From Tessaracoccus flavus (lineage in GTDB: Bacteria > Actinomycetota > Actinomycetes > Propionibacteriales > Propionibacteriaceae): DNA of 64,000 nucleotides. Location: contig NZ_CP019605.1 of the NCBI RefSeq assembly GCF_001997295.1, positions 1,674,001 through 1,738,000 on the forward strand, given 5' to 3'. The notes under the pieces are model-generated. The model did not search any database and was not told where the DNA came from. It saw only the letters and a program-made list of their open reading frames with translations. How positions within the stretch are numbered: the stretch's first letter is position 1; each line of letters begins with the position of its first letter. Positions 6,064 through 31,360 of the stretch are shown in pieces. The translations under genes and the position numbers were made by a program.

Positions 6064-6872
6064 CCCGCACTCCCGGCCGGGACGAGCAGGCGGCCCTGGG
6101 GCCCGGTGACCGAGGTGAGCCAGCCGAGGTCTCCCCAGGTGAACTCGATGCGCCCGTCGGGCCCGACCTCGCTGGTGCGGCGTCCGGCCCGGTCGTAGGT
6201 GTAGTGCGCGGCCACCCCGTCCGTCTCGCGCGTCGCCAGCTGCCCCGACGGCCCGTACGTGTGGGTGGTCGTCCGGCCCGCCGCGGTCTCGGCGACCAGG
6301 CGCCCCGCGGCGTCCCACGACCAGGTGTGCACGACATCGCCGCTGCGGGCGGCGACGAGCTGTCCTGCCGCGTCGTGGGTGCCCTCGGTGCGGACGCCGT
6401 CGCGCACGACCGCCGCCACCCGGCCGTCCTCGTCGCGTTCGACCGTGGTGCCGACCTCGGCGCCCGTCGCGGTGCCGGTGTGCGAGACGACCAGGTTGCC
6501 CGTGTAGGCCCACTGCTGGGTACCGGCGGAGCCGGTCGCGGCGAGGACCCGCCCGGCGGCGTCCCGGCTGAACTCGAGGCGACCCGCGCCGTCCGCCTCG
6601 ACCCAGGCCATCCGGCCCGCGGCGCCGACCATCTCGGCGGCGTCACCGCTGAGGGAGGCGGCGGTCGCGTCGAGCTTGGTGGCCACGGTCTCCAGCGCGT
6701 CGCCGACACGGGCGAGGTCGCCGGCGGTATCGGTGGAGGCCGGCTCGTCAGGCAGCGGCTCCGGCAGAGGCACCAGCGCCACGACGCCGACGGCGTAACC
6801 CCCGCTGACCCCCACGCCCGTCAGCAGCGCGGCGATGGTGTGCACGCCGGTCGTCTCAGCGGTGTTGGTCAT
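6060..6872 (-). CDS. chimeric protein: PtsI N-terminal ~85 residues fused to YD (Rhs) repeats
   Basis: A 270-residue reading frame starting at ATG 6872. Residues 1–~85 are a close copy of the N-terminus of the ptsI product encoded at 34.2–35.9 kb (shared GDLARVGDALETVA and LDATAASLSGDAAEM). From about residue 88 it becomes a YD/Rhs repeat protein (DAAGRVLAATGS, DAAGQLVAARSG, DAAGRLVAETAAG, YDRAGRRTSEVGPDG). It lacks the phosphorylatable His and the PEP-binding domain, so it cannot act as enzyme I. It also lacks a recognisable C-terminal toxin domain, ending soon after TWGDLGWLTSVTG. The fusion is in frame and the promoter side is also copied, so it may be expressed. The function, if any, is unknown. 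Confidence 0.75.
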   Translation of the reverse strand: MTNTAETTGVHTIAALLTGVGVSGGYAVGVVALVPLPEPLPDEPASTDTAGDLARVGDALETVATKLDATAASLSGDAAEMVGAAGRMAWVEADGAGRLEFSRDAAGRVLAATGSAGTQQWAYTGNLVVSHTGTATGAEVGTTVERDEDGRVAAVVRDGVRTEGTHDAAGQLVAARSGDVVHTWSWDAAGRLVAETAAGRTTTHTYGPSGQLATRETDGVAAHYTYDRAGRRTSEVGPDGRIEFTWGDLGWLTSVTGPQGRLLVPAGSAG

Positions 6873-6961
6873 CTTCCCGACTATAGCCACCGGTCGTCAC
6901 CCGCAAGCCGTGTCTTCGTCACTCGCGTTCGCCACGCCCGTCAACGAGCGATACTGGTTGC

Positions 6962-7390
6962 GTGAGTACCGCCTACTCGATCCGGACCGACCGCCTGATC
7001 CTGCGCCCCCTGCACGAGGCGGATGTCGACGTCGTCGTGGCGTACCGGAATCACCCCGACGTCAGCACTCTGCAGGATTGGGAGCTTCCGGTCACGCGGG
7101 ATCGCGTTGAGCGGCAGGTAGCCGAGACGTGGATGGACCTTGAAGCGCAGGGCGATGTGCTGGTGTTCAGCGGCATCCTCGAGCAACTGGACCAGCGGCC
7201 CGCGCCGGCGAGGCCCAACCGCCTGACCGCGCGGGAGCACGAGGTGTTGGAGTTGCTGCGCGAAGGTCTGCCGGACAAGCAGATCGCCACTCGGCTGCAG
7301 ATCTCGGTGAAGACCGTGGAGAAGCACGTGGGTTCGGTGCTGCGCAAGAACGGCGTGCACAGCCGAACCGAGCTTCTGGTGCAGGCCTGA
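6962..7390 (+). CDS. chimeric protein: GNAT N-terminus fused to LuxR-type HTH
   Basis: A 142-residue frame starting at GTG 6962. Residues 1–~60 match the N-terminus of the GNAT acetyltransferase at 35.98–36.56 kb (TDRLILRPL, WELPVTRDRVERQVAETW). After about 7145 the sequence changes to a LuxR/FixJ C-terminal DNA-binding domain (LTAREHEVLELLREGLPDKQ, ISVKTVEKHVGSVLRKNGV). The acetyl-CoA-binding core of GNAT is missing, so only the HTH could be functional. It is divergent from the PtsI–YD chimera and shares the copied promoter region. It could be a novel DNA-binding protein or two relics joined by recombination. Confidence 0.7.
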   Translation: MSTAYSIRTDRLILRPLHEADVDVVVAYRNHPDVSTLQDWELPVTRDRVERQVAETWMDLEAQGDVLVFSGILEQLDQRPAPARPNRLTAREHEVLELLREGLPDKQIATRLQISVKTVEKHVGSVLRKNGVHSRTELLVQA

Positions 7391-7399
7391 CCCCACCAA

Positions 7400-7544
7400 G
7401 ACCCCCATAAACCGGGTGGTCCTCCAGAAGATCGCGGAGAGCGGTCTGCGCATCGGAGCCGACGAGGGCGAATGTGGTGGTGAGATAGTCAATAAGTACG
7501 CCGCGCAGCCGCATGGCCTCGCGACCGGGAAGTAGCTCACTCAC
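7400..7544 (-). pseudogene. N-terminal fragment of a large SF2 (DUF1998-type) helicase
   Basis: The minus strand from ATG 7544 encodes about 47 residues beginning SELLPGREAMRLRGVLIDYL and containing TTTFALVGSDAQTALRDLLED. This resembles the start of very large (about 2000-residue) DEAD-box helicases with a C-terminal DUF1998 domain found in defence islands (recalled family, not searched). The similarity stops after HPVYG at the 3' end of the LuxR chimera, so more than 95% of the gene is gone. Confidence 0.5.
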
Positions 7545-7550
7545 TTGGCT

Positions 7551-7744
7551 GTCCTCCCCGGAGCGAGTCGCCCCCGCGGCGCCGACCTACCTCGGATCCC
7601 TCGTCGATAGCATCACGACTGGGACTGACACCACAGTAGCGTCCGTCCTTGCACAACGTCGCCGTCCACATCGGCTATGGCCTTCCAAGCCGGGCAGCCT
7701 CGCTGTGCTCGACCCGGCTCGCTGACCTGATCTGCATCGAGCCA
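7551..7744. other. short intergenic gap between two helicase relics
   Basis: No convincing reading frame, RNA gene or repeat is seen here. It separates the start of the DUF1998-helicase relic from the broken end of the SNF2 relic, so it may hold unrecognisable remnants of genes once lying between them. Confidence 0.4.
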
Positions 7745-8826
7745 CTACACCGCCACAAGCGTCGGGCCTAGCCAGGTGTCCACCAGCTCGTCGACGACGG
7801 CGTCCTCCTGCGGGGAGGCGTCGATGAGGCGGTTGTCGGGCTCGAGGCGCTCGGCCCAGTCGGCGCCCACCTCCTCGGCCACCTCGGCGCTGTGGCGGTG
7901 TCGTCGGATGGTGAGCTGGTCGACGCGCTTGGCGTCCAGGTCGCCGTCGGCCTTGACTGCGGTGGGGTCGAGGAGACGCACCAGCTCGGCGAACGATTCA
8001 CGTGATCCGTTGTGCGGGGTGGCGGACGCGAGGATGAGGGCGTCGGCCTGCGGCGCGAGGATGCTGGCCAGGCGGTTGTTGAGGGTGGCGGTGTTGGTGA
8101 CGTTGTGCGACTCGTCGATGACGACGGCGTCCCAGTGGTGGCGGCGCAGATCGTGGACGAAGCGCTCCTGCTTCAGCGTGTCGATGGAGATGATGACGCG
8201 GCGGAAGTAGGAGAACGGATTGCGGTTGGCGGGCAGCTTCTGCTTGACGCGGGCCACACCTTGGGAGTCGAGGCGCACGAACGGGATGGCGAAGCGGCTC
8301 CACATCTCGTGCTGCATCTGCTCCAGCACGTGTCGCGGGGTGACCACCAGGATCCGCTCCCCGCGGCCGCGGCGGATGAGCTCGGAGAGGATCATGCCGA
8401 TCTCGAGCGTCTTGCCGAGGCCGACGGCGTCGGCGAGCAGAATGCGGGGCCGCAGCGTCGCGGGGTCGAGGGCCTTCGCGACGGCCTTGTGCTGGTAGCC
8501 GAGCTGGCGGGCGAGCATGCGGGGCGAGACGGTGAGCGAATCGTCGCTGAGGGGGACGGCGGTCTTGCGGAGCGTGGACTCCACCCAGAGGCGGGAGCGG
8601 CGGTACTTGGGTGAGTCGTCGGCGCGGACTTCAGTGTCGCGGGGGTCGTTGAGCTTGATCCGGTCCAGCGAGGGTAGAAGACGGCGTCCTGGCCGCGGAC
8701 CAGATCCGAGAGACCCTGGGCGTTGAGGACCGGTCCGTCGGACGACTCGTCCACCGAGGTGATCAGCCAGTCCTCGTCACGCACCACGACGACGTTGCCG
8801 GGTGCGAAGGTATCGGTGCTACTCAT
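7745..8826 (-). pseudogene. broken SNF2-family (RapA/DrmD-like) helicase
   Basis: The minus-strand gene starts at ATG 8826 (SSTDTFAPGNVVVVRDEDW). A one-base deletion near 8672 shifts the frame: FYPRW should continue as FYP-SLDRIKLNDP. After the shift the N-terminal ATPase lobe is well preserved, with Walker A LLADAVGLGKTLEIG, motif II DESH and motif III SATPHNGS. The frame ends at 7745 with no C-terminal helicase lobe, so the gene is both frameshifted and 3'-truncated. Intact relatives are about 900–1000 residues and occur in DISARM-type defence loci (drmD) or as stand-alone RapA-like proteins. Lying beside a toxin–antitoxin pair and another helicase relic, this looks like a dead defence island. 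Confidence 0.75.
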
Positions 8827-8959
8827 CGTGTCGCAGCCTATCGGCTGGGATGGTCACGCTGCGTGAGGGCGATCAGAGTGTGCAACACCCGAGCAGGCAT
8901 GGCCGAGCCCCCACCCAGACTGTAGACCGAGTCCTAGCATTGCTATCAAGGAGGAAGCC

Positions 8960-9196
8960 ATGAGCAGTCTGACGATCCGCCAGTTGAACGAACACACCCA
9001 CGCCCGGTTGCGGGGTCGGGCGGCCAAGCATGGTCGATCGGTCGAGGCCGAGGTGCGCGCAATCCTAGATGCCGCCGTCGACCTTCCGGACGAGAACATC
9101 CTCCTCGCACTGCACACCGCCATCTCCGAGGTGGGGGGAGTCGAGCTGCAGGTGCCAGTCCGAGATGATCTTCCGCGCCCGGTCGACCTCTCGTGA
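8960..9196 (+). CDS. FitA/VapB-type ribbon-helix-helix antitoxin
   Basis: A 78-residue protein with an N-terminal RHH/Arc fold (SSLTIRQLNEHTHARLRGRA) followed by a helical VEAEVRAIL segment, typical of FitA-like antitoxins (plasmid-stability type) that neutralise PIN toxins and repress their own operon. An AAGGAGGAAG ribosome site precedes ATG 8960. Its stop overlaps the toxin's GTG start (GTGA at 9193–9196), the usual coupling for these modules. The C-terminal half (PVRDDLPRPVDL) would be the toxin-binding tail. Confidence 0.85.
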   Translation: MSSLTIRQLNEHTHARLRGRAAKHGRSVEAEVRAILDAAVDLPDENILLALHTAISEVGGVELQVPVRDDLPRPVDLS

Positions 9197-9621
9197 TCAT
9201 CGCCGACACGGACGTCGTCTCCGAGTTCATGAAGGACACCCCCGAGGCGAGCGTCATGGCGTGGGCGCGGGACTTGGCGGCGTCGGACCTCACCATCAGT
9301 GTGGTGACCGTCGAGGAGATCGTTCGTGGCCTTGGACGGCTCCCTGCCGGTCGTCGACGCAAGGACCTCGAGGCCCGATGGAACACACTTGTCAGTGCCT
9401 TTGCCGATGCGATCGCCGTGTACGACGTGACGGCGGCGAGAGCCACGGCCCGCCTCCTTGTCGACGGCCTCACCCAAGGGCGCACGATGTCCCTGGCCGA
9501 TGCGCAGATCGCCGGAATCTGCCTCGCTAACGGAGCCACCCTGGCCACGAGGAACGTCAAGGACTTCCCACATGTGTCGGATCTGACAGTTGTGAACCCC
9601 TTCGACGCCGATCATCTCTAG
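9193..9621 (+). CDS. PIN-domain ribonuclease toxin (FitB/VapC family)
   Basis: A 142-residue PIN-domain toxin expected to cleave RNA, often tRNA, in a Mg2+-dependent way. The acidic active-site residues are visible: the first Asp pair in IIADTDVVSEF, Glu in TVEEIVRGL, Asp in SLADAQIAGICLANG and a late Asp in TRNVKDF. GTG 9193 is chosen because it overlaps the antitoxin stop. Length and motif order match FitB rather than the shorter HEPN toxins. It forms a complete type II module with the upstream RHH gene, inside a region of decayed defence genes. Confidence 0.85.
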   Translation: MIIADTDVVSEFMKDTPEASVMAWARDLAASDLTISVVTVEEIVRGLGRLPAGRRRKDLEARWNTLVSAFADAIAVYDVTAARATARLLVDGLTQGRTMSLADAQIAGICLANGATLATRNVKDFPHVSDLTVVNPFDADHL

Positions 9622-12331: not shown

Positions 12332-12790
12332 TCACGGATCGACGTGCGGCTGGCGGAAACCCCACACGTCGCGCAACCACCGCGGCACGAACTCATCCAA
12401 CGCCTTCTCCAACTCGCCGCCCGCCTCGTCGTCCACCACCCACCACGACGTGAGCACGTCGGTCCCCGGCGGGCAGTCGTCCTCCGGCGGATCGAGATAG
12501 ACGCAGCCAAGCAGCCGATCCTCCCCCTCTGGCAGAACCGCGTAATTGAACGTCTCCTTCGCGGCGATCTCCGCCTCGTGTCGCGCCAGATCAGCTTGGT
12601 CCTCCTCCCGAGTCATTGTCGCCAGCGGCCACCCCCAGGCCTCGCCGTACTTCTCCCACAGCCGCTCCCGCGAGCCCATGACCGCGGGATAGTCGATGTC
12701 GATGTCCGACTCACGAATCGGACGCAGGTGATGCCCGGTGGGTAGGTCCACCCGGGACGGCGGTTCGACTTCGGCGGGAATCCACGTCAT
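12332..12790 (-). CDS. GNAT-like N-acetyltransferase
   Basis: A 152-residue protein starting at ATG 12790 (MTWIPAEVEPPSRVDLPTGHH is the opening stretch, shown here in part). HHLRPIRESDID is a typical GNAT first strand, and NYAVLPEGEDRLLGCVYLDP a typical strand 3–4 with acetyl-CoA side. The substrate is unknown. The start region (about 40 codons) occurs a second time at 18.14–18.25 kb, just upstream of the second vWA gene, showing that the 5' end of this gene was part of the duplicated unit. It is divergent from vWA copy 1. Confidence 0.7.
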   Translation of the reverse strand: MTWIPAEVEPPSRVDLPTGHHLRPIRESDIDIDYPAVMGSRERLWEKYGEAWGWPLATMTREEDQADLARHEAEIAAKETFNYAVLPEGEDRLLGCVYLDPPEDDCPPGTDVLTSWWVVDDEAGGELEKALDEFVPRWLRDVWGFRQPHVDP

Positions 12791-12938
12791 GCCATATTCT
12801 CCCCCGGTGCCCGTCTCCGCGCTGCGCACACACGCAGAACGCCCGAGGACATGTGCACCCCAGCCCCTGCGGCCACGCGGGGAGGTCGCCTCGTCTAACG
12901 CCGTTGTTGACCTGGTTAGGGTGTATCAGGTCTGATGG

Positions 12939-12994
12939 TTGACAATCCGGCGCCGGCGTTTGCTAAAGTAAACACTACCTTTGCAAATGCAAAT
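12939..12994 (+). promoter_or_regulatory. promoter/operator region of vWA copy 1
   Basis: TTGACA at 12939–12944 is a good −35. It is followed by two AT-rich motifs unusual in this GC-rich DNA: TTTGCTAAAGTAAAC (12959–12973, imperfect palindrome) and TTTGCAAATGCAAAT (12980–12994, an inverted TTTGCA/TGCAAA). Equivalent motifs occur before vWA copy 2. They are candidate binding sites for the XRE protein of the same cassette (inference). Confidence 0.6.
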
Positions 12995-13019
12995 TAATTC
13001 CGACGAGAGGAGCGAGTGA

Positions 13020-15020
13020 ATGACTCGCCGCCACCTTCTGTCCGCCGCCGCGGCCCTCGCGCTCGCTGCCGCCAGCGTCGCGCCCGTTGCCGCCGATGAG
13101 TCGCTGGCCCCCGAGCAGACCAAGGTTGTGTTGGTGCTTGACGCGTCCGCATCGATGAACGAGCCCGATCCTTCCGGCGTCACCAAGCTCGAAGCCGCCA
13201 AGACCGCCCTCATCGGGGCGCTGGGATCGCTGCCTGAGGACGCCGACGTGGGTCTGCGCGTCTACGGGGCCACCGTCGACGGCCCCGGCCGGACCCCGGC
13301 GGAGTGCGCCGACTCTCAACTCGTCCACCCGATCGAACCCCTCGACGAGCAGGGCCTCACTGCCGCCATCCAGTCTTTCGATGCGGTCGGTGAGACCCCC
13401 ATCGCCTACTCGCTATTGGAGGCGGCCAAGGATCTGGGCCCCGACGGTAAGCGACACATCATCCTCGTCTCCGACGGCGAGGAGCGCTGCGTCCCCGACC
13501 CGTGCGTCGCGATCCAGGACATCAGCGACGCCGGGATCGGGCTGCAGATCGACACCGTCGGCTTCGGCGTCGGTGATGCGGCGCGCGAACAGTTGAAGTG
13601 CATCGCCGAAGCGGGGGCCGGCACCTACTACGACGCTGCCGACGCCGGAACGTTGACCACCACACTGACCACCCTCTCCACCCGCACAGCGCGCCCGTTC
13701 ACGGTGCAGGGCACCCCCGTCGAGGGCACACCCACGCCGGAAGCCGCCCCCCTCCTGGAGGTGGGGCAGTACGTGGACACCTCCGCCTCGTCCACCCAGG
13801 GCACGACGACCAAGTACTACCGCGTCCCACGCACCCAGCCCGGCTCCACGATCCGCGTGAGCATGATCGGCCGCCTGCCTACCGCCAAGGACGGGGTCAA
13901 CCGAGGACGGTGGGATTGGCGCCTATCGACGCCCGACGGTATCGAGTGTTCGAGCCGCTGGGCCCTGGCAGACGACAGGCAACGACTGGGTGTGATCGCC
14001 ACCGGCACCGTCGTCGCCGTGCAACTTGACCCGCGGGCTCAGCAGCCCACCAAGAGCGCGGAAGCCTGCGCCGAGGCCGAGGAGCTGATCTACGAGGTGA
14101 CACGCGCCAAGGCCAAGACCGCGGCGACCACCGATGTCGAGATCCGGGTCACAGAAGAGGCCCCGGCCGCCGATGCCGCCTCACTTCCCGATGGCGTCTC
14201 GTCCGTGCCCACGAGCAACGCCGACCAGCTGACCTCCCCAGCCTCGGGGACGCCTGTGAACGTCGTTGGCGGTGCAAGCTTCAACGACGCCCTGGCCGTC
14301 GAGCCCGGTACCTACGTGACGGACATCGTCCCCGGCGAACTGGTGCTGTTCAAGACCCACGTCGGCTGGGGGCAGGAGGCGATCCTCGCAGTCGACGGAC
14401 CGGACCCGACGTTCGCGCCGCTCCAGGGTCTGGGGCCCAACGACTGGATGAGCGTCGCCGGCAACGTCTATGCCCCCGACCTCAGCCAGATGGACTCCCT
14501 CGAAGCGCAGAACGCCGCGAGGTACCGCGTCATGGAGGGTGGTTTTGACCGCCAAGGCAGCCCCGACATTAACCAGGTTCCGCAGGTGAACTTCCGCAAC
14601 CGGTGGGATTCGCCCCGCATGTACTTCTCGAACAGCGACGGCTTCGCGATGGCAGGCGACTACTACTTCGCCGTCGGCCTCGGGGAACTCCGCGATGAGA
14701 AGCTCCGCGGCGTTCCTGTACCGATCACCTTCTCCATCGCAGTCACCGGCGAGGTGCAGGGAGCGCCGGAGTATGTCGAGGCCGACGCTGAGCCACGTCC
14801 CTCCCCCACCGACGAGCCGACCCCCAGCTCGGAGCCCACGCCGGAGCCGACGGAGGCGGCCACGGCGACTGAGATCCCCGCCGATCCGACCGACGATGGC
14901 ACCGACGAGCCTGCCGCAGAGGCAGAGCCCTCTGGCTCGGCGCTGCCGCTCATCGGCGGGGCGCTGCTCGTCGTCGGAGCCGTGGGCGCCGGGGTCTACG
15001 CCGTCATGCGCCGTCGTTAG
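13020..15020 (+). CDS. secreted membrane-anchored von Willebrand A-domain protein, copy 1
   Basis: A 666-residue exported protein. Signal peptide (LLSAAAALALAAASVAPVAA), then a vWA domain (about residues 35–225) with an intact metal-ion-dependent adhesion site: DASASMNE (DxSxS), the Thr of VGETPIA and the Asp of LVSDGEER. A Cys pair RCVPDPCV may form a disulfide. The middle ~370 residues form an unrecognised beta-rich region duplicated in copy 2. A Pro/Glu/Thr-rich stalk (SPTDEPTPSSEPTPEP) leads to a C-terminal membrane helix (ALPLIGGALLVVGAVGAGVY) and an Arg-rich stop-transfer tail. The MIDAS domain therefore faces outside. Its 3' end overlaps the convergent kinase gene by 4 nt. The ligand is unknown. 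Confidence 0.85.
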   Translation: MTRRHLLSAAAALALAAASVAPVAADESLAPEQTKVVLVLDASASMNEPDPSGVTKLEAAKTALIGALGSLPEDADVGLRVYGATVDGPGRTPAECADSQLVHPIEPLDEQGLTAAIQSFDAVGETPIAYSLLEAAKDLGPDGKRHIILVSDGEERCVPDPCVAIQDISDAGIGLQIDTVGFGVGDAAREQLKCIAEAGAGTYYDAADAGTLTTTLTTLSTRTARPFTVQGTPVEGTPTPEAAPLLEVGQYVDTSASSTQGTTTKYYRVPRTQPGSTIRVSMIGRLPTAKDGVNRGRWDWRLSTPDGIECSSRWALADDRQRLGVIATGTVVAVQLDPRAQQPTKSAEACAEAEELIYEVTRAKAKTAATTDVEIRVTEEAPAADAASLPDGVSSVPTSNADQLTSPASGTPVNVVGGASFNDALAVEPGTYVTDIVPGELVLFKTHVGWGQEAILAVDGPDPTFAPLQGLGPNDWMSVAGNVYAPDLSQMDSLEAQNAARYRVMEGGFDRQGSPDINQVPQVNFRNRWDSPRMYFSNSDGFAMAGDYYFAVGLGELRDEKLRGVPVPITFSIAVTGEVQGAPEYVEADAEPRPSPTDEPTPSSEPTPEPTEAATATEIPADPTDDGTDEPAAEAEPSGSALPLIGGALLVVGAVGAGVYAVMRRR

Positions 15021-15970
15021 AGCAGCAGCAGAAGGATCCCGACGATCATCAGGGCTCCGAAGGATCCGAAGACAACGAGATCACGGCTGTTCAGCCGACG
15101 GTCTGCCCCGTCTGCGTCCGATTCGGATTGGTGGAGCCGCTCCGCTTCGTCGGTGTGCTCCGGCGCGAAGTGGTCGAACACCTCCACCTCACCGGCAGCG
15201 CCGTCGTGCCAGGCGAGCTCCGGCGCCTCAAGCCGCGCGAGGGCGTCGGGAAGCGACATCCTCCGCTGGGGGTCAGGCTCGGTCAGCGCCACGAGGGTGT
15301 CCCACAGCGAGCTCGGCACACCGTTGGGGGCGGCCCCCCGTGCCACGTCCTGGGGCCGCACACCGGTCAGCAGGTGGAGACCGACGCTGCCCAACGAGTA
15401 CGCGTCCGAGGCCGGGGCCGGATCCCCGAGAGCGGCCAACTCGGGCGCGAGATAGCCGGGGGTGCCCGTCACCAGACCGGTCTCGGTGAAGCGGGGGCCG
15501 TCGAGCTCGACGGCGATCCCGAAGTCCGACAGATAGGCGTGCGGCCGTCCCGCGCCGGTGGCGTCGAGGAGGATGTTGGCAGGTTTGACGTCGCGGTGGA
15601 CCAGGCGCCCGTCGTGGACGGCGATCAGCGCGGAGGCGATCTGGCGCAGGATCTCGGCGACGAAGAGTGGTGGGAGGGCGCCGTAGTCGCCCACCAGGGT
15701 GGCCAGCGAGCCGCCGGCGACGATTGGCATCGTGAAGAGCACCCGATCGTCCTCACCCGCCCAGCCGAGGGGCATAAGGACGTGCGGGTGGTGGATCCGA
15801 AGGCTCTGCTCACGCACGAACCTCAGCAGCGACGTGCTGTGCGACTGGCGCAGGATCTTGGCGGCGACCACACGGTTCCGCTTGAGGTCCTCGACCCGCC
15901 ATACGGTGCCCATACCCCCCTCGCCGATGGGCTCGAGGAGGAGATAGCGACCGGCGAACAGCTCAGCCAT
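15017..15970 (-). CDS. tail-anchored Ser/Thr protein kinase (Hanks type), copy 1
   Basis: A 317-residue kinase with all key motifs: P-loop GEGGMGTVWR, Lys in VVAAKIL, catalytic loop HRDVKPANILLD, Mg-binding DFG in SDFGIAVE and GTPGYLAPE. After the kinase domain (about 8–260) an acidic linker leads to one membrane helix (GALMIVGILLLLL) that ends the protein. It therefore has no extracellular sensor, unlike PknB-type kinases, and is a tail-anchored cytosolic kinase. The start overlaps the XRE gene end by 8 nt, so the two are coupled, and the 3' end overlaps the vWA gene convergently. A role relaying a signal between the vWA protein and the regulator is inference. Confidence 0.9.
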   Translation of the reverse strand: MAELFAGRYLLLEPIGEGGMGTVWRVEDLKRNRVVAAKILRQSHSTSLLRFVREQSLRIHHPHVLMPLGWAGEDDRVLFTMPIVAGGSLATLVGDYGALPPLFVAEILRQIASALIAVHDGRLVHRDVKPANILLDATGAGRPHAYLSDFGIAVELDGPRFTETGLVTGTPGYLAPELAALGDPAPASDAYSLGSVGLHLLTGVRPQDVARGAAPNGVPSSLWDTLVALTEPDPQRRMSLPDALARLEAPELAWHDGAAGEVEVFDHFAPEHTDEAERLHQSESDADGADRRLNSRDLVVFGSFGALMIVGILLLLL

Positions 15971-16412
15971 GGCTGGAGGGGCCAGCCGCCAGCCGCAGTA
16001 GGGCCGCCAGTTCTGGAGCCGTCGTCTGCTGCGCCAGCCGTTGCAATTCCTCCGACGGCGCGGCCGCGCGCAGGGCGTGGACTGCGCCGGCGTCGCGCAT
16101 CGTCGACATGGTGGGTTGCTCGTCGTGGATCGCGGCCAGCCGTGCCTCCCTCTCCTCCGAGGAGAGTGCTGGGCCGACGGCCAGATCGGCCAGGGACTGA
16201 AGGCGTGCGAGCACCGCCGGATTACCGATCTTCACCCGTCGAGCGCTGACCAGCTGCGACAGCATCGGCGCGGAGAGCCCGATGACCTCGGCGAGGCGCC
16301 CCTGAGTGAGACCCAGTGCCGACGTGATGCGTCCGACGATGTCGGCAATCGGCTCGCCGTAGAGCTCTCGCTGCGTCTGGCGGTTGGCAGCCTCAGTCTC
16401 GGGGGTGCTCAT
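15963..16412 (-). CDS. XRE-family HTH regulator, copy 1
   Basis: A 149-residue protein with a helix-turn-helix in residues ~22–70 (TSALGLTQGRLAEVIGLSAP, MLSQLVSARR) and a helical C-terminal half rich in Ala/Glu (TTAPELAALLRLAAG). It is the first gene of a two-gene operon with the kinase, overlapping it by 8 nt. The C-terminal half has several Ser/Thr and could be a kinase substrate (inference). It may bind the AT-rich palindromes before the vWA genes. Confidence 0.85.
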   Translation of the reverse strand: MSTPETEAANRQTQRELYGEPIADIVGRITSALGLTQGRLAEVIGLSAPMLSQLVSARRVKIGNPAVLARLQSLADLAVGPALSSEEREARLAAIHDEQPTMSTMRDAGAVHALRAAAPSEELQRLAQQTTAPELAALLRLAAGPSSHG

Positions 16413-16500
16413 CGAGCCTCCTCTACGTTTGTGGCACGGCCAGGAGCGCTTTCCGCTTCCCGAGAGGCCCGTGCGCTACACAATATCCCTGCGATCCTGC

Positions 16501-16666
16501 CATTCACTCAAGTTGCTGGTCACCACGCTGGCGAGCGCCGTGGCCCGGTTCTGGCCTGACACAGCCAGCAACGCCGTCGACCCAGGGTGGGTGCCCACCA
16601 GGATGGGCGGACCCTCAGCTCCGGACGACCTGCGCCTGGGACACCTCACACAGGAGTGGCTCGCCA
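16501..16666 (+). pseudogene. C-terminal fragment of a short-chain dehydrogenase
   Basis: An open plus-strand stretch encodes LLVTTLASAVARFWPD, SNAVDPGWVPTRMGG and GHLTQEWLA. This is the familiar C-terminal part of classical SDR oxidoreductases, where PGWVPT follows the catalytic YxxxK helix. No N-terminal Rossmann part or start codon precedes it. It is a relic lying between the two cassette units. Confidence 0.65.
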
Positions 16667-16728
16667 AGCGCGATCTGCTCGCCCGTCTGGGGCCCCGTCA
16701 CCGCCACTGTGGACGTAGGGTGACGGCC

Positions 16729-17317
16729 ATGGAACTGCAGGACTTCCTCGCCCACGTCCACCGCCGGGAGTTCATCGAGAGCGGCTCCGAACTCCACCGG
16801 CTCATTATTTAAGGCCTCGCAGGAGGCGATGCGGATCACGGCGGAACTCAACTCCCGCTATCACTCTCCCGACGAGGTGCGCGCGCTCCTGTCGCGGCTG
16901 ACCGGCCGCCCCGTCGATGAGTCGGTGACGGTGTTCCCGCCGCTCTACAGCGAGTTCGGCCGGAACCTCAAGCTGGGCAAACGCGTCTTCATCAACATGG
17001 GGTGCCGGTTCCAGGACACCGGCGGCATCACCATCGGCAACGACACCCTCATCGGGCATGGCTGCACCTTCACCACCCTCAACCACGCGATGGACCCAGA
17101 CCGACGCGGCGACATGGTCCCGGCACCCATCGTCGTGGGCCGCAAGGTGTGGTTCGGCGCGAACGTAACGGTGCTCCCGGGGGTGACGATCGGCGACGGC
17201 GCGGTGATCGGTGCTGGCTCCGTCGTCACCCGGGATGTGGAGCCGGACGTGATTGTCGCGGGCGTCCCGGCCAGGCCCATCCGCCCCACCGGATTCCACA
17301 GCATCTCCGCTCCCTGA
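16729..17317 (+). pseudogene. maltose/galactoside O-acetyltransferase, frameshifted near the N-terminus
   Basis: A left-handed beta-helix (hexapeptide) acetyltransferase of the Maa/LacA type. The body (from about 16808) holds INMGCRFQDTGGITIGND, IGHGCTFTTLNH with the catalytic His, and IGAGSVVTRDVEPDVIVAGVPA. The family N-terminus starts at ATG 16729 (MELQDFLAHVHRREFIESGS) but stops at TAA 16810 in another frame. One inserted or deleted base in the ATTATTTAA region would join LHRL to KASQEAMRITAE. A shorter protein could start at ATG 16829, losing about 30 residues. A sequencing error is possible. Confidence 0.75.
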
Positions 17318-17466
17318 GGGCCCGCACCTGAGGCGCGTAAGTCGGCGGCCTCGGACCTGATGCTGCGCCATCGACGATCGGCCTGCGTCCATCGTCATCG
17401 AGGCCGTCATCAGCAGGTTGCCGCAGTCGCTCAGGATCGCCGGGTCGCCACCGACCGTGTGCCCGT

Positions 17467-18129
17467 CTACTCGTCGCTGGGCAGCGCCAGTGGCCCGGTG
17501 CACACGAGCGCACGGCCGGGGCTGTCCATGGTGATCTCGTCGTTGTATGCCGTGGGGCCGGGGGACGGCGCGACCTGGACGCACACCTCCACCTGGGTCG
17601 GGGCCGTGGTGAGCGGCTGCTCGTCATGGACCATCGCCTCGCTCACGTCGGGGAGGTCACCGCGCAGCGGGAGCGGCACGGACATCTCACCGTTCAGGTG
17701 CCCGCCCCGGTCGACCAGCGCGGCGGGGGCCCGCCAAGGCGCGTAGAGCAACGTGCCGGGGGTGGTGCTGAAAACCTGCTTCGACAGACGTGCCGCGTCG
17801 GGGGAGGCCTGCGAGACCCAGACCGACTCCGGCTCCCGCGGGGCAGTGCTGCTGCCGGACTGGTCGTGGCCCCGCTCGGTGAGGACCAGCAGCGGAGCCT
17901 CACCGTCGTTGGTGACGGTGTAGGACACCCGCAGCCCCCGCTCGTCGCGGGACACCGACGCCTCGATGCTGGCCCGGACGGACGCCGGCTCGGTGGTCAC
18001 TGCAGACTCCTGCGTGGACGGGGTGGTCACGGTCGTGGGCTCGGAGGGGGAGGTACCCAGGCTCGTCCCACTGCAGGCCGACAGCGCCAGGCACAGCCCG
18101 GCGGCGGCGACCGACCACCCTCTCCTCAT
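17467..18129 (-). CDS. hypothetical lipoprotein
   Basis: A 220-residue lipoprotein: signal peptide with lipobox LALSAC, then a Thr/Ser-rich linker and a beta-rich domain (VSYTVTNDGEAPLLVL, VEVCVQVAPSPGPTAYND). Two Cys residues in the mature part may pair. I do not recognise the family. It lies between the two cassette units, and its start is next to the GNAT relic at 18.14–18.25 kb. Confidence 0.65.
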   Translation of the reverse strand: MRRGWSVAAAGLCLALSACSGTSLGTSPSEPTTVTTPSTQESAVTTEPASVRASIEASVSRDERGLRVSYTVTNDGEAPLLVLTERGHDQSGSSTAPREPESVWVSQASPDAARLSKQVFSTTPGTLLYAPWRAPAALVDRGGHLNGEMSVPLPLRGDLPDVSEAMVHDEQPLTTAPTQVEVCVQVAPSPGPTAYNDEITMDSPGRALVCTGPLALPSDE

Positions 18130-18139
18130 ACGCCCGACC

Positions 18140-18254
18140 CTAACCGACCTCCACCGTCGATGTCGACGTCCGACGCACGGATAGGACGCAGGTGATGCCC
18201 CGTGGGCAGGTCCACCCGGGACGGAGGAAGGAATTCGTCAGGAATCCACGTCAT
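18140..18254 (-). pseudogene. 5' fragment of the GNAT gene (copy from 12.7 kb)
   Basis: From ATG 18254 the minus strand encodes MTWIPDEFLPPSRVDL and then TGHHLRPIRASDVDID, nearly the same as the start of the GNAT gene at 12332–12790. The similarity ends after about 36 codons at the junction with the lipoprotein gene. This marks the left end of the second duplicated unit. Confidence 0.85.
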
Positions 18255-18326
18255 GCCACATTGTGCCCCCTCCGGGGCATCGTCGCGGCGGCTAGGGTAT
18301 ACGGGGTTCGCGCGGCTGGTCCAGCC

Positions 18327-18366
18327 TTGACGTTTACTAAAGCAAACTCTATATTTGCATTTGCAC
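18327..18366 (+). promoter_or_regulatory. promoter/operator region of vWA copy 2
   Basis: TTGACG (18327–18332), a 17-bp spacer and TATATT (18350–18355) form a good sigma-70-type promoter. The palindrome-like GTTTACTAAAGCAAAC (18332–18347) fills the spacer and TTTGCATTTGCA (18354–18365) overlaps the −10. Both motifs also precede copy 1, so a repressor site is likely. Confidence 0.65.
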
Positions 18367-18393
18367 ACACATCCGACAGGAAGGGACGAGACG

Positions 18394-20397
18394 ATGCCTC
18401 GCCTCCGACACCTCACCGCCGCCACCCCCGCGCTCGCTATCGCAGCCGCGGGTGCCCTCCCCAGTGTGGCCGACGAAACCGCGTTACCCGAGCAGACCAA
18501 GGTCGTCCTGGTGCTCGACGCTTCCGCGTCGATGAACGAGCCCGACCCTTCCGGAGTGACAAAGCTGGAGGCGGCCAAGACCGCCCTCATCGGGGCCCTG
18601 GGATCGCTGCCTGAGGACGCCGACGTGGGCCTGCGCGTCTACGGGGCCACCGTCGACGGCCCCGGCCGGACCCCGGCGGAGTGCGCCGACTCCCAGCTCG
18701 TCCACCCGATCGAGCCCCTCGACGAGCAGGGCCTCACTACGGCCATCCGGTCCTTCAACGCTGTCGGCGAGACCCCCATCGCCTTCGCGCTGCAGGAGGC
18801 CGCCACGGACCTCGGAACTGAGGGGAAGCGGCACATCATCCTCGTCTCCGACGGCGAGGAGCGCTGCGTGCCCGACCCGTGCGTCGCTGTGCAGGACATC
18901 ATCGACGCCGGGATCGGGCTGCAGATCGACACCGTCGGCTTCGGCGTGGGCGGCGTGGCCCGCGAGCAGTTGACGTGCATCGCTGAGGCGGGCGGAGGAA
19001 CGTACTACGACGCCGCGGACGCAGGGACGTTGACCACCACCTTGAGCACGCTTTCGACGCGCACGGCCCGCCCTTTCACCATCCAGGGAACCCCCGTTGA
19101 GGGCAGCCCCACCCCAGAGGGTGCGCCGCTCCTCGAGGTGGGGCAGTACGTCGACGTCGCCGCCTCGTCCACTCAGGGCATGACGACCAAGTACTACCGG
19201 GTCCCGCGCACGCAGCCCGGCTCCACCATCCGGGTGAGCATGGTGGGCCGCATGCCCGCCGCACCCGACGGGATGAACCGAGGACGGTGGGATTGGCGGC
19301 TCTCGACGCCGGACGGCCTCGAGTGCTCGAGCCGGTGGGCACTCGCCAGTGACACGCAGCGACAGGGAGTGATCGCCGCCGGGACCGTCATGGCCGTGCA
19401 ACTGGATCCCCGCGCCCAGCAGCCCGATGCCCGCGCACAAGCCTGCGCCGAGGCCGACGAACTGGTCTACGAGGTGAAGCGTGGCAACGCCAGAACCGCG
19501 GTGACCACCGACGTGGAGATCCGGGTCATGGAGGAGGCTCCCGCAGCCGATGCCGAGTCGCTTCCCGACGGCGTCGCCTCGGTGCCGCGGGACAACTCCG
19601 ACCAGTTGACCTCCCCGGCCTCGGGGGCGCCGGTGAGCGTCGTCGGCGGGGCCAGCTTCAACGATGCCTTGGCGATCGAGCCGGGCACCTACGTCACCGA
19701 TTTGGTGCCGGGAGAAGTGGTCCTCTTCAAGACGCGTGTCGACTGGGGGCAGGAGGCCATCTTCGCGATCGACGGGCCGGACCCGGCGTTCGCACCGTTG
19801 CAGGGCTTGCACAGCCTGGACTGGCTGAACGTTCCCGGAAACGTCTACGCCCCCGACTTCAGCCAGATGGACTCCCAGGAACTGCTGCGCGCGGGGATGT
19901 ACCGCATGGTCAACGGCCGGCTCGAGCTCACGAGCCGCCCCGACATCAACCAGGTTCCCCAGGTCAACTTCCGCAACCGGTGGGATTCGCCGCGGATGTA
20001 CTTCCGGAACAGCAATGGCTTCTCGATGGCCGGTGACTACTACTTCGCCGTCGGCCTTGGCGAGCTCCGCGATGGAGAGCTCCGAGGCGTTCCGGTGCCG
20101 ATCAGGTTCTCGATCGCGGTCACGGGGGACGTGCAAGGGGTCCCGGAGTACGCGGAGGCCGACGTCGAGCCGAGTCCCTCCCCTGCCGCGGAGCCGACGC
20201 CCAACCCCGAGCCGACACAAGAAACGACGGAGTCAGCCACGGCGACGGAAACCCCGTCCGAGGCGGGCGACGATGCCACCGAGGGGTCCACCACTGACGC
20301 AGAGCCCTCCGGTTCCGCGCTGCCGCTCGTGGGAGGAGCGCTGCTCGCCGTCGGCGCAGTGGGGGCCGGTGTCTACGCCGTCCTGCGTCGACGCTAG
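18394..20397 (+). CDS. secreted membrane-anchored von Willebrand A-domain protein, copy 2
   Basis: A 667-residue paralogue of the protein at 13020–15020 with the same architecture: signal peptide (ending before ADETALPEQ), vWA domain with MIDAS DASASMNE, GETPIAF and LVSDGEER, the long unrecognised middle region, a Pro/Glu/Thr stalk (PSPAAEPTPNPEPTQE), one C-terminal membrane helix and an Arg tail. ATG 18394 is chosen for the AGGAAGGGA site before it and the signal peptide after it; the frame is also open upstream to an ATG at 18355. Substitutions are spread over the whole protein, more than in the kinase. It overlaps the convergent kinase gene by 4 nt. Confidence 0.85.
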   Translation: MPRLRHLTAATPALAIAAAGALPSVADETALPEQTKVVLVLDASASMNEPDPSGVTKLEAAKTALIGALGSLPEDADVGLRVYGATVDGPGRTPAECADSQLVHPIEPLDEQGLTTAIRSFNAVGETPIAFALQEAATDLGTEGKRHIILVSDGEERCVPDPCVAVQDIIDAGIGLQIDTVGFGVGGVAREQLTCIAEAGGGTYYDAADAGTLTTTLSTLSTRTARPFTIQGTPVEGSPTPEGAPLLEVGQYVDVAASSTQGMTTKYYRVPRTQPGSTIRVSMVGRMPAAPDGMNRGRWDWRLSTPDGLECSSRWALASDTQRQGVIAAGTVMAVQLDPRAQQPDARAQACAEADELVYEVKRGNARTAVTTDVEIRVMEEAPAADAESLPDGVASVPRDNSDQLTSPASGAPVSVVGGASFNDALAIEPGTYVTDLVPGEVVLFKTRVDWGQEAIFAIDGPDPAFAPLQGLHSLDWLNVPGNVYAPDFSQMDSQELLRAGMYRMVNGRLELTSRPDINQVPQVNFRNRWDSPRMYFRNSNGFSMAGDYYFAVGLGELRDGELRGVPVPIRFSIAVTGDVQGVPEYAEADVEPSPSPAAEPTPNPEPTQETTESATATETPSEAGDDATEGSTTDAEPSGSALPLVGGALLAVGAVGAGVYAVLRRR

Positions 20398-21353
20398 AGA
20401 AGCAGCAGGACGATTCCGAGGATCATCAGTAGCCCGAAGAAGCCGAAGACGAGGAGGTCCCGGGTGCTCAGGCGGCGGCCCGCCGCGTCCCCTGGTTCCG
20501 GCGCAAGCTGGGCACCCGCCCCCGGCTCGGCCGCAGGTTCGGGCACGAAGTGGTCGAACACCTCCACCTCCCCGGCGGCGTCGTCGTGCCAGGCGAGTTC
20601 CGGCGCGGCAAGCCGGGCGAGAGCGTCGGGCAACGTCAACCTGCGCTGAGGGTCAGGCTCGGTCAGCGCCACGAGGGTGTCCCACAGCGCGTCCGGTACA
20701 CCGATGGGCGCGGACCCCTGGCGGGGCACGTCCTGGGGCCGCACCCCGGTCAGCAGGTGGAGACCGACGCTGCCCAACGAGTACGCGTCCGAGGCCGGGG
20801 CCGGATCCCCGAGAGCGGCCAACTCGGGCGCGAGATAGCCGGGGGTGCCCGTCACCAGGCCGGTCTCGGTGAAGCGGGGGCCGTCGAGCTCGACGGCGAT
20901 CCCGAAGTCGGTGAGGTAGGCGTACGGGCGCCCAGCGCCGGTGGCGTCGAGGAGGATGTTGGCAGGTTTGACGTCGCGGTGGACCAGGCGCCCGTCGTGG
21001 ACGGCGATCAGCGCGGAGGCGATCTGGCGCAGGATCTCGGCGACGAAGAGTGGTGGGAGGGCGCCGTAGTCGCCCACCAGGGTGGCCAGCGAGCCGCCGG
21101 CGACGATTGGCATCGTGAAGAGCACCCGATCGTCCTCACCCGCCCAGCCGAGGGGCATAAGGACGTGCGGGTGGTGGATCCGAAGGCTCTGCTCACGCAC
21201 GAACCTCAGCAGCGACGTGCTGTGCGACTGGCGCAGGATCTTGGCGGCGACCACACGGTTCTGCTTGAGGTCCTCGACCCGCCATACGGTGCCCATACCC
21301 CCCTCGCCGATGGGCTCGAGGAGGAGATAGCGACCGGCGAACAGCTCAGCCAT
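20394..21353 (-). CDS. tail-anchored Ser/Thr protein kinase (Hanks type), copy 2
   Basis: A 319-residue paralogue of the kinase at 15017–15970. The catalytic domain is almost identical (GEGGMGTVWR, HRDVKPANILLD, TDFGIAVE, GTPGYLAPE). Differences cluster in the region after the activation segment and in the linker (EPAAEPGAGAQLAPEPGD) before the terminal membrane helix (LLMILGIVLLLL). It is the second gene after its XRE regulator, overlapping by 8 nt. The concentration of changes in the linker and membrane segment suggests each kinase is matched to its own vWA partner (inference). Confidence 0.9.
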   Translation of the reverse strand: MAELFAGRYLLLEPIGEGGMGTVWRVEDLKQNRVVAAKILRQSHSTSLLRFVREQSLRIHHPHVLMPLGWAGEDDRVLFTMPIVAGGSLATLVGDYGALPPLFVAEILRQIASALIAVHDGRLVHRDVKPANILLDATGAGRPYAYLTDFGIAVELDGPRFTETGLVTGTPGYLAPELAALGDPAPASDAYSLGSVGLHLLTGVRPQDVPRQGSAPIGVPDALWDTLVALTEPDPQRRLTLPDALARLAAPELAWHDDAAGEVEVFDHFVPEPAAEPGAGAQLAPEPGDAAGRRLSTRDLLVFGFFGLLMILGIVLLLL

Positions 21354-21810
21354 GGCTGGAGGGGCCAGCCGCCAGCCGCAGTAGGGCCGCCAGTTCTGGA
21401 GCCGTCGTCTGCTGCGCCAGCCGTTGCAATTCCTCCGACGGCGCGGCCGCGCGCAGGGCGTGGACTGCGCCGGCGTCGCGCATCGTCGACATGGTGGGTT
21501 GCTCGTCGTGGATCGCGGCCAGCCGTGCCTCCCTCTCCTCCAAGGAGAGGGCCGGGCCGACGGCCAGATCGGCCAGGGACTGAAGGCGTGCGAGCACCGC
21601 CGGATTACCGATCTTCACCCGGCGAGCGCTGACCAGCTGCGACAGCATCGGCGCGGAGAGCCCGATGACCTCGGCGAGGCGCCCCTGAGTGAGACCCAGT
21701 GCCGACGTGATGCGTCCGACGATGTCGGCAATCGGCTCGCCGTAGAGCTCTCGCTGCGTCTGGCGGTTGATGTTGTCGGGCGTCTCCGCGGCTGGGCTGG
21801 TGGCATTCAC
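21346..21810 (-). CDS. XRE-family HTH regulator, copy 2
   Basis: A 154-residue copy of the regulator at 15963–16412. From NRQTQRELYGEPIADIVG onward the two differ at only about one residue (SLEERE against SSEERE), so the HTH recognition helix is the same and both proteins should bind the same sites. Only the first ~15 residues differ. It leads the operon with kinase copy 2. Confidence 0.85.
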   Translation of the reverse strand: MNATSPAAETPDNINRQTQRELYGEPIADIVGRITSALGLTQGRLAEVIGLSAPMLSQLVSARRVKIGNPAVLARLQSLADLAVGPALSLEEREARLAAIHDEQPTMSTMRDAGAVHALRAAAPSEELQRLAQQTTAPELAALLRLAAGPSSHG

Positions 21811-21898
21811 GCGTCGAGCGTATTCGACCTTGGATGCCGAAGCGCTGTATCACGCCAGGTCTCGGTCGTCCCGTCGGCGACGTCGTCGACGTTCGCTG

Positions 21899-22336
21899 TC
21901 AGCCGGCGCGACCTTTCGGCCGACCGTCGGGTCTGAGCGGTCCGAACAGGCGCTCTCGCTCGCTCAGTAACCAGTGCGGGGTAAGGAGCCGGGTGAGCCT
22001 AGCCGGACGGTTGAAGGCCAGCGACAGCATCGCAACCAGCAGCCCCGCCATGGCGACCAGCGCCAACCAGTGCACGGGCCCCAGACCTCGATCGGGGCTC
22101 TCGACGAGAACCATCACCGCGATCGGGAGGGCCAGCAGCGACAGCCAGAGCCCTCCGGCCAGGCGGTGACCCTCCGGGTCCAGAATCATTCTGAGGCGAA
22201 GGCGGGCCCATCGCCCGGCATAGGCCAGGATTCCGACGACGAAGAAGCCGACCATCCCGGCGCCCACCAACGCGGTAGCCGCAATCACGCCCCAGTCGAT
22301 GTCACTGTCCACACCCAGTCCCTTCGGTCGTGGCAC
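21899..22336 (-). CDS. hypothetical membrane protein
   Basis: A 145-residue protein with about four hydrophobic segments (WGVIAATALVGAGMVGFFVV, GLWLSLLALPIAVMVLV, WLALVAMAGLLVAMLSLAF) and a basic C-terminus. GTG 22336 is chosen because an AGGTGAAGAG site lies just upstream. No known family is recognised. It sits downstream of the ynfA-like gene on the same strand. Confidence 0.6.
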   Translation of the reverse strand: MPRPKGLGVDSDIDWGVIAATALVGAGMVGFFVVGILAYAGRWARLRLRMILDPEGHRLAGGLWLSLLALPIAVMVLVESPDRGLGPVHWLALVAMAGLLVAMLSLAFNRPARLTRLLTPHWLLSERERLFGPLRPDGRPKGRAG

Positions 22337-27935: not shown

Positions 27936-28817
27936 TCAGCCAGGTCCCAGCGGAGGTAGTCCGAGTTGTTGACGGCGGGTCGCGAGCAGACCGGGGAGCA
28001 CCTTCCCAATGTCCGACGCGGTCTCCGCCGTGAAGTGCACCATGAGCCAGCCGACGGCGGCGAGGTCCGCGTCGCGTGCCCGCCCCCGCTCGAACGCGTC
28101 CCGGGAGGAAGGGAACTCAAACCCGTCCAGTTCGACGCCCACCTTCTCCTCCAAGAACGCTGCGTCGATGTAGTAATGCGTCTGGCCGACGTCAACGCGA
28201 TGATTGGACCTCCACCCCGTCAACCCGGCTTCGCGAAGGTGGCGGTGCGCCTCCCGCTCAAGGTGCGACCACGGCGCAGACGCCGTCTCGGCCAGGATCT
28301 CGCGACGCCGACGGTTGCCCCGCCGCCGTGGAGTCAACGCCATGGCCTTCTGCAGTTGCTCCACCGTCACCGCACGCCGTCGGAGAGCGAGGTACACGAC
28401 GTCGGCGTCGAACTCGGGAATGAGGTCTAAGACGGTGAGAGCCGGCGCCGTCAGCCAACACCCCTGGTGCTTCGTCAACAGCGGCGGCGGAATCAGCCGC
28501 TGCTCTACCACAAGGTCATAGCCGGGCTCGACGGCTCGGGGGCAGGCCAGCCTCCACGTCGAGGGGCACTCCACCTCCGGCCACCAAGTCAACGCAGCCG
28601 CGTGATGCCTGGTCACGACGAGGTCGTCGCCGTACGCGCGGACCGCCTGCAACTTGCCGTCGAGGGTGTCCGCCGCCCCCACCTTGCCGTAGACGCCCGG
28701 CAGCAGCCGCTCCAACTGTCCTCGGTGCGCATAGGAGTTCAGCGCCCGGGCCTTCCACCTTGTCGCACGTGCCGCCATAACCCCGTCGCGAGTCATCTCA
28801 TGAATGAACGGATCCAT
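27936..28817 (-). CDS. AbiEi-like N-domain protein with C-terminal DUF559 (Vsr-like nuclease fold)
   Basis: A 293-residue protein. The N-terminal ~90 residues look like the AbiEi-type winged helix of 'type IV antitoxin-like' proteins (LLPGVYGKVGAADTL, AVRAYGDDLVVTRHHAA). The C-terminal ~100 residues resemble DUF559, a Vsr/restriction-endonuclease-like fold, with YYIDAAFLEEKVGVELDGFEF supplying the D-x(n)-E-x-D style core. Such proteins are widespread in actinobacteria and unassigned. The gene is bracketed by two copies of the 80-bp palindromic element, and a 162-bp piece of it occurs at 5278–5439, both hinting at mobility. Confidence 0.8.
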   Translation of the reverse strand: MDPFIHEMTRDGVMAARATRWKARALNSYAHRGQLERLLPGVYGKVGAADTLDGKLQAVRAYGDDLVVTRHHAAALTWWPEVECPSTWRLACPRAVEPGYDLVVEQRLIPPPLLTKHQGCWLTAPALTVLDLIPEFDADVVYLALRRRAVTVEQLQKAMALTPRRRGNRRRREILAETASAPWSHLEREAHRHLREAGLTGWRSNHRVDVGQTHYYIDAAFLEEKVGVELDGFEFPSSRDAFERGRARDADLAAVGWLMVHFTAETASDIGKVLPGLLATRRQQLGLPPLGPG

Positions 28818-30871: not shown

Positions 30872-30879
30872 TGCGCCCG

Positions 30880-31064: not shown

Positions 31065-31099
31065 TCGGACGACGTGGGCCTAGTCAGTGGACTCCTCAC

Positions 31100-31352: not shown

Positions 31353-31360
31353 AGGTCGGG

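Follow-up and report, generated by a model that had tools for sequence, protein, structure and literature searches.

Several described systems combine a serine/threonine (Ser/Thr) kinase with an external sensing part, a von Willebrand factor A (vWA) protein or a transcription factor. In PASTA receptor kinases the external PASTA part is carried on the kinase chain itself, and in PknH-EmbR of mycobacteria the kinase gene is adjacent to that of EmbR, an FHA-containing activator of transcription and substrate of the kinase, with no separate receptor chain. The TerY-P triad comprises a vWA protein, a kinase and a PP2C, and ArnB, the vWA protein of the archaeal Arn system, is cytoplasmic. According to an excerpt of PMC6509490, the archaeal vWA protein is phosphorylated by Hanks-type kinases, affecting the expression of surface structures. 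In Streptomyces coelicolor, SCO3860 is among the tail-anchored kinase candidates listed in an excerpt of PMC3087755. Here we describe a unit that shares parts with each of these systems and occurs twice in a 64,000-nucleotide stretch of Tessaracoccus flavus (NZ_CP019605.1, positions 1,674,001 to 1,738,000; hereafter the window, whose numbering we use). Each copy encodes an exported vWA protein, a Hanks-type kinase that ends in a transmembrane (TM) helix and an XRE-type regulator with a helix-turn-helix (HTH). Giving it a probability of about one half, we propose that the unit forms a two-chain receptor kinase, with an XRE partner that represses the genes of surface proteins and is tuned by the kinase through phosphorylation. 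No description of the module as a whole was found in the open-access literature searched.

Conservation of the unit and its operator

The first-pass annotation, made from the window's sequence, had set conserved co-occurrence beyond this locus as a test beforehand, and such co-occurrence was found. Among 96 genomes, including the window's own, the kinase was present in 32/32 genomes with the XRE compared to 9/64 without it (Fisher p=1e-17), and the vWA/ectodomain protein in 30/32 compared to 9/64 (p=1e-14); these counts, like the site counts below, ignore shared ancestry. The calls were derived from 33 genomes with an XRE, one weak hit being dropped, 41 with a kinase at E<=1e-50, and 50 with a vWA match, reduced to 39 by dropping 11 with only weak vWA-domain hits. 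In the two XRE genomes without a vWA match, G047 and G052, the neighbouring gene is of a divergent ectodomain-only type. The three genes stand side by side in dozens of loci with varying order, the kinase gene being opposite in strand to the vWA/ectodomain gene in 46 of the 47 loci holding both, and 18/25 same-strand XRE-kinase pairs overlap or lie within 35 nt (open reading frame (ORF) starts uncurated). Protein distances over 45 loci were correlated for all three pairs (vWA-kinase 0.70, vWA-XRE 0.67, kinase-XRE 0.86; 0/1000 permutations), which shows joint inheritance and not contact. The vWA-kinase-XRE unit is a conserved actinobacterial module. Its distribution is narrow, given that the XRE was found in 42/296 genomes and 7/115 genera of a class sample and in 12/396 genomes and 2/237 genera of a phylum sample. 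Where vWA loci lack an XRE (for example, L054, L055, L061, L063, L065 and L073), acyl-CoA carboxylase/dehydrogenase families lie nearby, which we took as chromosomal context.

The constant part of the surface protein is its ectodomain and the vWA domain is optional; the vWA domain as constant sensor was rejected because ectodomain-only proteins replace the vWA protein in relatives. Two genomes carry a short vWA protein (about 310-324 amino acids) with kinase and XRE and an ectodomain-only gene elsewhere (L049/L050 in G002, L052/L053 in G004), so the vWA and ectodomain halves can be separate genes.

Each vWA promoter of the window contains two 14-bp TTTGC-N4-GCAAA palindromes, which lie at positions -61 and -40 relative to the ATG, a spacing of 21 bp. 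With up to one mismatch, the window holds five such sites against 0.20 expected, and the whole genome holds ten, four of them at the vWA promoters, along with a single exact site at vWA1. The reversed pattern gave 17 genomic sites at the same threshold, and the one-mismatch sites away from the vWA promoters are therefore background. No palindrome was found before XRE1 or XRE2 of the window.

To compare loci, we counted TTYGC-N4-GCRAA with up to one mismatch within 250 bp upstream; genes whose upstream DNA was shorter than 60 bp were excluded, as were loci belonging to distant vWA-only families. TTYGC replaced the narrower TTTGC in the consensus during the analysis, and the sites of the Streptomyces-type loci described below were found afterwards. 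A site preceded 34/40 vWA-ectodomain genes in XRE loci compared to 0/12 in genomes without an XRE (p=9e-8), while six scrambled palindromes at the same 40 promoters gave 4/240. Sites were also common upstream of XRE genes (38/53) and rare upstream of kinase genes (2/50); ectodomain-only genes had 0/13 in XRE loci and 1/5 where the XRE lies elsewhere in the genome. Among class-sample loci, 28/30 had an exact site within 250 bp upstream of the XRE, with half-sites fixed and spacers variable; ten of these 30 loci came from genomes counted earlier, and the 20 newly counted genomes gave 20/20. In a further vWA set, ten of whose 18 members had been counted before, the site was present in 9/10 with an XRE and in 1/8 without (one mismatch, at -195), or 4/5 and 1/3 among new genomes only. 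Other vWA-only proteins had no site upstream (0/11). The annotation's proposal that the XRE regulates both vWA genes thus gains strong, if indirect, support from the palindromes conserved at both promoters and across loci, and we consider this predicted control well supported. One genome, G037, has a second, distant vWA-ectodomain gene next to two ectodomain-only genes (L039, 8272-13219), and the former and one of the latter carry operators; the only XRE found in this genome lies elsewhere (L040), which predicts control in trans.

The site is conserved enough to predict further targets, including exported lipoproteins, peptidoglycan-binding proteins and beta-helix proteins. Exact TTYGC-N4-GCRAA sites numbered 11 to 29 per genome in eight genomes compared to 3 to 7 for the reversed pattern, although coding background may account for the many that read TTCGCC..GGCGAA. 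From these we selected 19 stretches by hand: in six, a gene starts 22-46 bp past the site and its product appears, by eye, to be exported; in the other 13, sites fall within genes or beyond their ends, or no obvious target is present. The exported candidates comprise related lipoprotein-like proteins without a Pfam family in G002, G003 and G037, two peptidoglycan-binding proteins, one in G037 (PF01471, 62.4 bits) and one in G017 (49.4 bits), and a beta-helix protein, also in G017. The window strain has 11 exact TTYGC sites, of which ten are outside the vWA promoters; of two of these that were read, one is inside a gene (L194) and one has no gene start nearby (L195).

A single large-genome genus accounts for 27 of the 42 XRE genomes of the class sample, with one XRE copy each, and its XRE relatives carry Streptomyces names where named (best 120 of 1838). 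In five of the first seven Streptomyces-type loci (L135-L139), an XRE and a kinase gene are accompanied by a convergent ectodomain-only gene; L149 holds vWA-ectodomain, ectodomain, kinase and XRE genes, and L148 an XRE alone. A number of neighbour families each occur in five or six of these seven loci. The neighbours in L136 include rhomboid, cyclophilin, DUF5324 and DUF3566 genes. The tail of the L136 kinase matches the SCO3860 tail given in Table 1 of PMC3087755, and based on gene order SCO3859 would be the XRE and SCO3861 the ectodomain gene. Two further loci, L155 and L156, were added later because the kinase seemed to be missing there.

Architecture and divergence of the two units

The layout described by the first-pass annotation holds up well (Table 1). 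ORFs and self-comparison confirm two units with vWA, kinase and XRE genes in the same orientation, and in both units the convergent vWA and kinase genes overlap by 4 nt at their stops, as had been noted, and the overlap of the XRE and kinase genes is 8 nt. The units were also called adjacent; the duplication stands, whereas strict adjacency does not, because a hexapeptide acetyltransferase-like gene and a lipoprotein-like gene, both unrelated to the module, intervene. For vWA2, the ORF list gives a TTG start at 18355, and the ATG at 18394 sits after a ribosome-binding-site-like stretch and the promoter.

Table 1. Positions of the duplicated units, their putative control sites and flanking features in the window
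Feature	Positions	Strand	Basis and remarks
GNAT-like acetyltransferase gene flanking unit 1	12332..12829	-	ORF; PF13302 20.5 bits, below cut-off 25.4
Operator-like palindrome 1, vWA1 promoter	12959..12972	.	TTTGCTAAAGTAAA
Operator-like palindrome 2, vWA1 promoter	12980..12993	.	TTTGCAAATGCAAA; sole exact TTTGCN4GCAAA in the 3.2-Mb genome
vWA1 gene	13020..15020	+	ORF; signal peptide (by eye), MIDAS vWA, two jelly-roll regions, Pro/Ser/Thr stalk, C-terminal TM helix
Kinase 1 gene	15017..15970	-	PF00069 E=2.4e-33; TM 298-316 of 317
Gene-conversion tract (kinase catalytic half and XRE)	15588..16386	.	98-100% identity with unit 2 at about 20971-21769
XRE1 gene, HTH regulator with linker and C-terminal part	15963..16412	-	ORF, profile scan
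Hexapeptide acetyltransferase-like gene, between units	16829..17317		ORF, profile scan
Lipoprotein-like gene, between units	17467..18129		ORF
Truncated copy of GNAT 5' end, at duplication edge	18156..18269	-	self-comparison
Sigma-70-type promoter TTGACG-N17-TATATT, vWA2	18327..18355	+	no other promoter-like site found in 12700-22000; chance expectation 0.4
Operator-like palindrome 1, vWA2 promoter	18333..18346	.	between -35 and -10
Operator-like palindrome 2, vWA2 promoter	18354..18367	.	overlapping end of -10
vWA2 gene	18394..20397	+	ORF, profile scan, self-comparison
Kinase 2 gene	20394..21353	-	PF00069 E=1.3e-33; TM 300-318 of 319
XRE2 gene	21346..21810	-	ORF, self-comparison; N-terminus and upstream DNA unlike XRE1 (duplication edge)

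The annotation's picture of a secreted vWA protein with an intact metal-ion-dependent adhesion site (MIDAS), a stalk and one membrane helix is supported by profiles, alignment and a structure model. The vWA domain matched PF13519 (33.1 bits, cut-off 27) and PF00092 (29 bits, cut-off 23.8), and D41, S43, S45, T126 and D152, which we take to be the MIDAS positions, are invariant in 48/48 aligned vWA sequences, the window's two included. In the model, a low-confidence stretch at 595-647 (the Pro/Ser/Thr-rich stalk) is followed by a C-terminal helix at 644-665; the signal peptide was identified by eye. For the region that had been described as a long, unrecognised ectodomain, the fold search with the whole model was filled by vWA domains, so we modelled the ectodomain alone, yielding two jelly-roll regions, of which the first appears to resemble a collagen-binding domain. 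The best Foldseek rows for it were SIDT1/SIDT2 ectodomains, at low TM-scores, and this kinship was not accepted.

Both window kinases are, as annotated, Hanks-type (PF00069 116.1 bits, cut-off 31.7; HRD, DFG and APE motifs read by eye) with a membrane helix at the extreme C-terminus, ending one residue before it, and no external sensor. A tail-anchored form was seen in 26/37 kinases compared. The kinases of L072, L074-L076 and L078-L084 have a short segment outside, past the TM helix, and most of them share a CGWQEAG...ETxxDGxxVEC-like motif, a possible sensor of their own.

The XRE of the window falls below the Pfam curated HTH cut-off (HTH_3, 17.7 bits compared to 23), as does a Streptomyces relative (HTH_31, 22.5 compared to 27); DNA binding by the XRE is supported by the conserved operators. 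After the HTH, the best 12-residue stretch, chosen for its Ser/Thr, contains at least five Ser/Thr in 53 of 67 XRE rows, in which some genomes are counted twice. This Ser/Thr-rich linker, seen in many relatives, is a candidate phosphorylation site. In two loci a degenerate XRE-like HTH forms the N-terminus of an ORF (L103 in G067, 7477-8925; L147 in G298, 7817-9208) that continues, by eye, into PLP threonine dehydratase-like sequence beside kinase and ectodomain genes; no operator was found at these two ORFs.

Comparison of the units revealed an uneven pattern of divergence. The block at 12957-16386 aligns with 18331-21769 at 85.5% DNA identity over 3444 columns, and a second block of 114 bp (12692-12805 and 18156-18269, 86% identity) indicates that the duplication included the 5' end of the GNAT-like gene that lies upstream. 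Protein identity between units is 81% for the vWA protein, 88% for the kinase and 99% for the XRE (over the aligned 140 amino acids). Differences at four-fold sites amount to 149/345 in the vWA gene and 4/97 in the XRE gene, and in the kinase gene they rise from 0/54 in codons 1-90 to 5/61 in the next 90, 10/51 in the next 80 and 9/18 in the tail. In the same-genus relative MC1679, the vWA protein is 89.6% identical to vWA2 and 81.5% to vWA1, and its XRE gene differs from XRE1 at 42/81 four-fold sites. Together, these comparisons point to two old vWA types and a recent homogenization of the XRE and the catalytic kinase half; read from the substitution pattern, this homogenization is by gene conversion, with the vWA genes and kinase tails left diverged. 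On the simplest reading, two diverged receptor variants are served by one homogenized regulator/kinase core. The kinase tail may be tuned to its own vWA partner, or the conversion tract may simply end there.

Elsewhere in the window, self-comparison identified direct repeats in several copies at about 49-bp spacing (30831-31353) and further duplicated stretches with 81-97% identity (6619-7152 and 35630-36164; 5278-5439 and 28560-28721; 36663-36935 and 56718-56986).

A proposed two-chain receptor kinase and its rivals

In the mechanism we propose, the surface chain (vWA domain, two jelly-roll regions, one TM helix and almost no cytoplasmic part) would pair with the kinase chain (a cytoplasmic Hanks kinase, one TM helix and almost nothing outside) to form a two-chain receptor kinase. 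The XRE is predicted to bind the TTYGC-N4-GCRAA palindromes, a binding site well supported from sequence, and, judging by the position of the sites, would repress the surface-protein gene by covering its promoter. The kinase would relieve or tune this repression by phosphorylating the XRE, perhaps in the linker; the resulting feedback loop would have the surface protein as its input and also as its output. Contact between vWA protein and kinase through the membrane, as the first-pass annotation had suggested, would fit the complementary anatomy of the two chains. Pairing of receptor and kinase is further suggested by the ectodomain gene, which stays beside the kinase and XRE genes even without an operator; at 0/13, this adjacency is not explained by being an XRE target. 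Phosphorylation of the XRE would be in keeping with an HTH protein encoded together with a kinase and with the linker of many relatives. We hold more tentatively, at somewhat less than even odds, a fuller version in which ligand-binding and catalytic halves of a split receptor Ser/Thr kinase are separate proteins that touch only through two TM helices, and in which a dedicated XRE repressor, phosphorylated by the kinase half, switches a surface and wall-binding regulon.

Several observations weigh against the proposed two-chain receptor kinase. Among the 96 genomes, nine without an XRE have the vWA/ectodomain protein and nine have the kinase; vWA-ectodomain genes lack the site in 6/40 cases in XRE loci and in 5/7 where the XRE is elsewhere in the genome; the Streptomyces-type loci have the site at the XRE gene and not at the ectodomain gene; and 11/37 kinases have an external segment of their own. 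The window XREs contain only three Ser/Thr in their best 12-residue stretch. Four XRE loci (L148, L155, L156 and L157) have neither a kinase nor an ectodomain gene in the stretch read, and two of them (L155 and L156, 19 kb read) keep both the linker and an exact operator, indicating that the XRE can work without a neighbouring kinase. Finally, SCO3859 was among ten proteins captured on ssg promoters, according to an excerpt of PMC4457907. At 30 ssg-family loci of four Streptomyces-type genomes, a scan that did not cover ssgR gave four one-mismatch sites and no exact one, within the range of scrambled controls. With no excess of sites at these loci, we rejected ssg promoters as operator targets of SCO3859, and its capture there is not explained by the operator.

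The loci without a neighbouring kinase lend weight to the strongest rival, in which the XRE represses surface genes independently of the kinase, and kinase and ectodomain form a receptor with other substrates, simply co-inherited with the XRE. Besides these loci, two with operator and linker intact, the kinase occurs without the XRE in 9/96 genomes. This rival sits poorly with the close spacing or overlap of most same-strand XRE and kinase genes, with XRE-kinase distances correlating best of the three pairs (r=0.86) and with the kinase being found in all 32 XRE genomes of the 96, and we consider it unlikely. At L148 most Thr of the XRE linker are gone and a one-mismatch palindrome remains; at L157 the linker cluster is missing and no site precedes the XRE. 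The absence of both Thr cluster and kinase at L131/L148 (G313) had prompted the idea of the phospho-linker as a strict kinase marker, which fails because L155 and L156 keep the linker.

Alternatively, the vWA/ectodomain protein could be output only, as an adhesin or wall-binding protein, with the kinase sensing something else through its own TM helix. Operators at the vWA genes, other predicted targets that are exported proteins and the external segment of some kinases would all suit such an arrangement, which leaves the operator-less ectodomain-only genes beside kinase and XRE unaccounted for and strikes us as rather improbable. A toxin-antitoxin-like pair resembling HipBA, with XRE as antitoxin and kinase as toxin, draws on the overlap of the two genes and on very weak HipB/HigA profile matches. 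The kinase, however, is Hanks-type, membrane-tailed and tied to a receptor-like protein, the profile lists contain Pkinase-type matches and no HipA family, and the window's operators are at the vWA promoters with none found before the XRE; we rejected this candidate as very improbable. The annotation's other suggestion, an anti-phage defence module, is equally remote and was dropped, since the kinase matches to the PADLOC PD-T4-6 and mad6 profiles rest on the kinase domain while vWA and XRE of both units hit 0 PADLOC families at E<=0.1, the 27 Streptomyces-type genomes have a single XRE copy and shared neighbour genes, and the other predicted targets are exported envelope proteins.

Comparison with known systems

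On the question of what is sensed by bacterial tail-anchored kinases that have no outside domain, the module offers a candidate partner chain, and with it a candidate substrate and an exact DNA site. The closest described pair is SCO3859-SCO3860 of S. coelicolor, which likewise joins a DNA-binding protein to a tail-anchored Ser/Thr kinase; the excerpts of PMC3087755 and PMC4457907 do not describe the three-gene module, the operator or a regulon. In Streptomyces-type loci, unlike the window, the ectodomain is mostly without a vWA domain and it is the XRE gene that carries the operator. A split receptor kinase, if true, would include this widespread locus. The comparison places an equivalent of the module in the genetically tractable Streptomyces.

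With PASTA receptor kinases (PknB/Stk1) the module has in common a Hanks kinase domain, a membrane helix and an external sensing part, which here is a separate protein of another fold; the window kinase ends at the TM helix and scores 141.4 bits against NF033483 (cut-off 450). The archaeal Arn system (ArnA FHA, ArnB vWA, kinases ArnC/ArnD) also combines a vWA protein with Hanks-type kinases. Unlike Arn, no FHA match was found among the window proteins profile-scanned, and in contrast to ArnB the window vWA protein is exported, with a signal peptide and a TM helix. TerY-P is similar in bringing vWA and kinase genes together, but the vWA protein here is exported and no PP2C was found among the ten window proteins scanned. 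PknH-EmbR shares a kinase gene beside a regulator gene, to which the window module adds a separate receptor chain. The module would work much like a receptor Ser/Thr kinase system; new would be the placing of the receptor on its own chain and the addition of a dedicated repressor whose site is defined.

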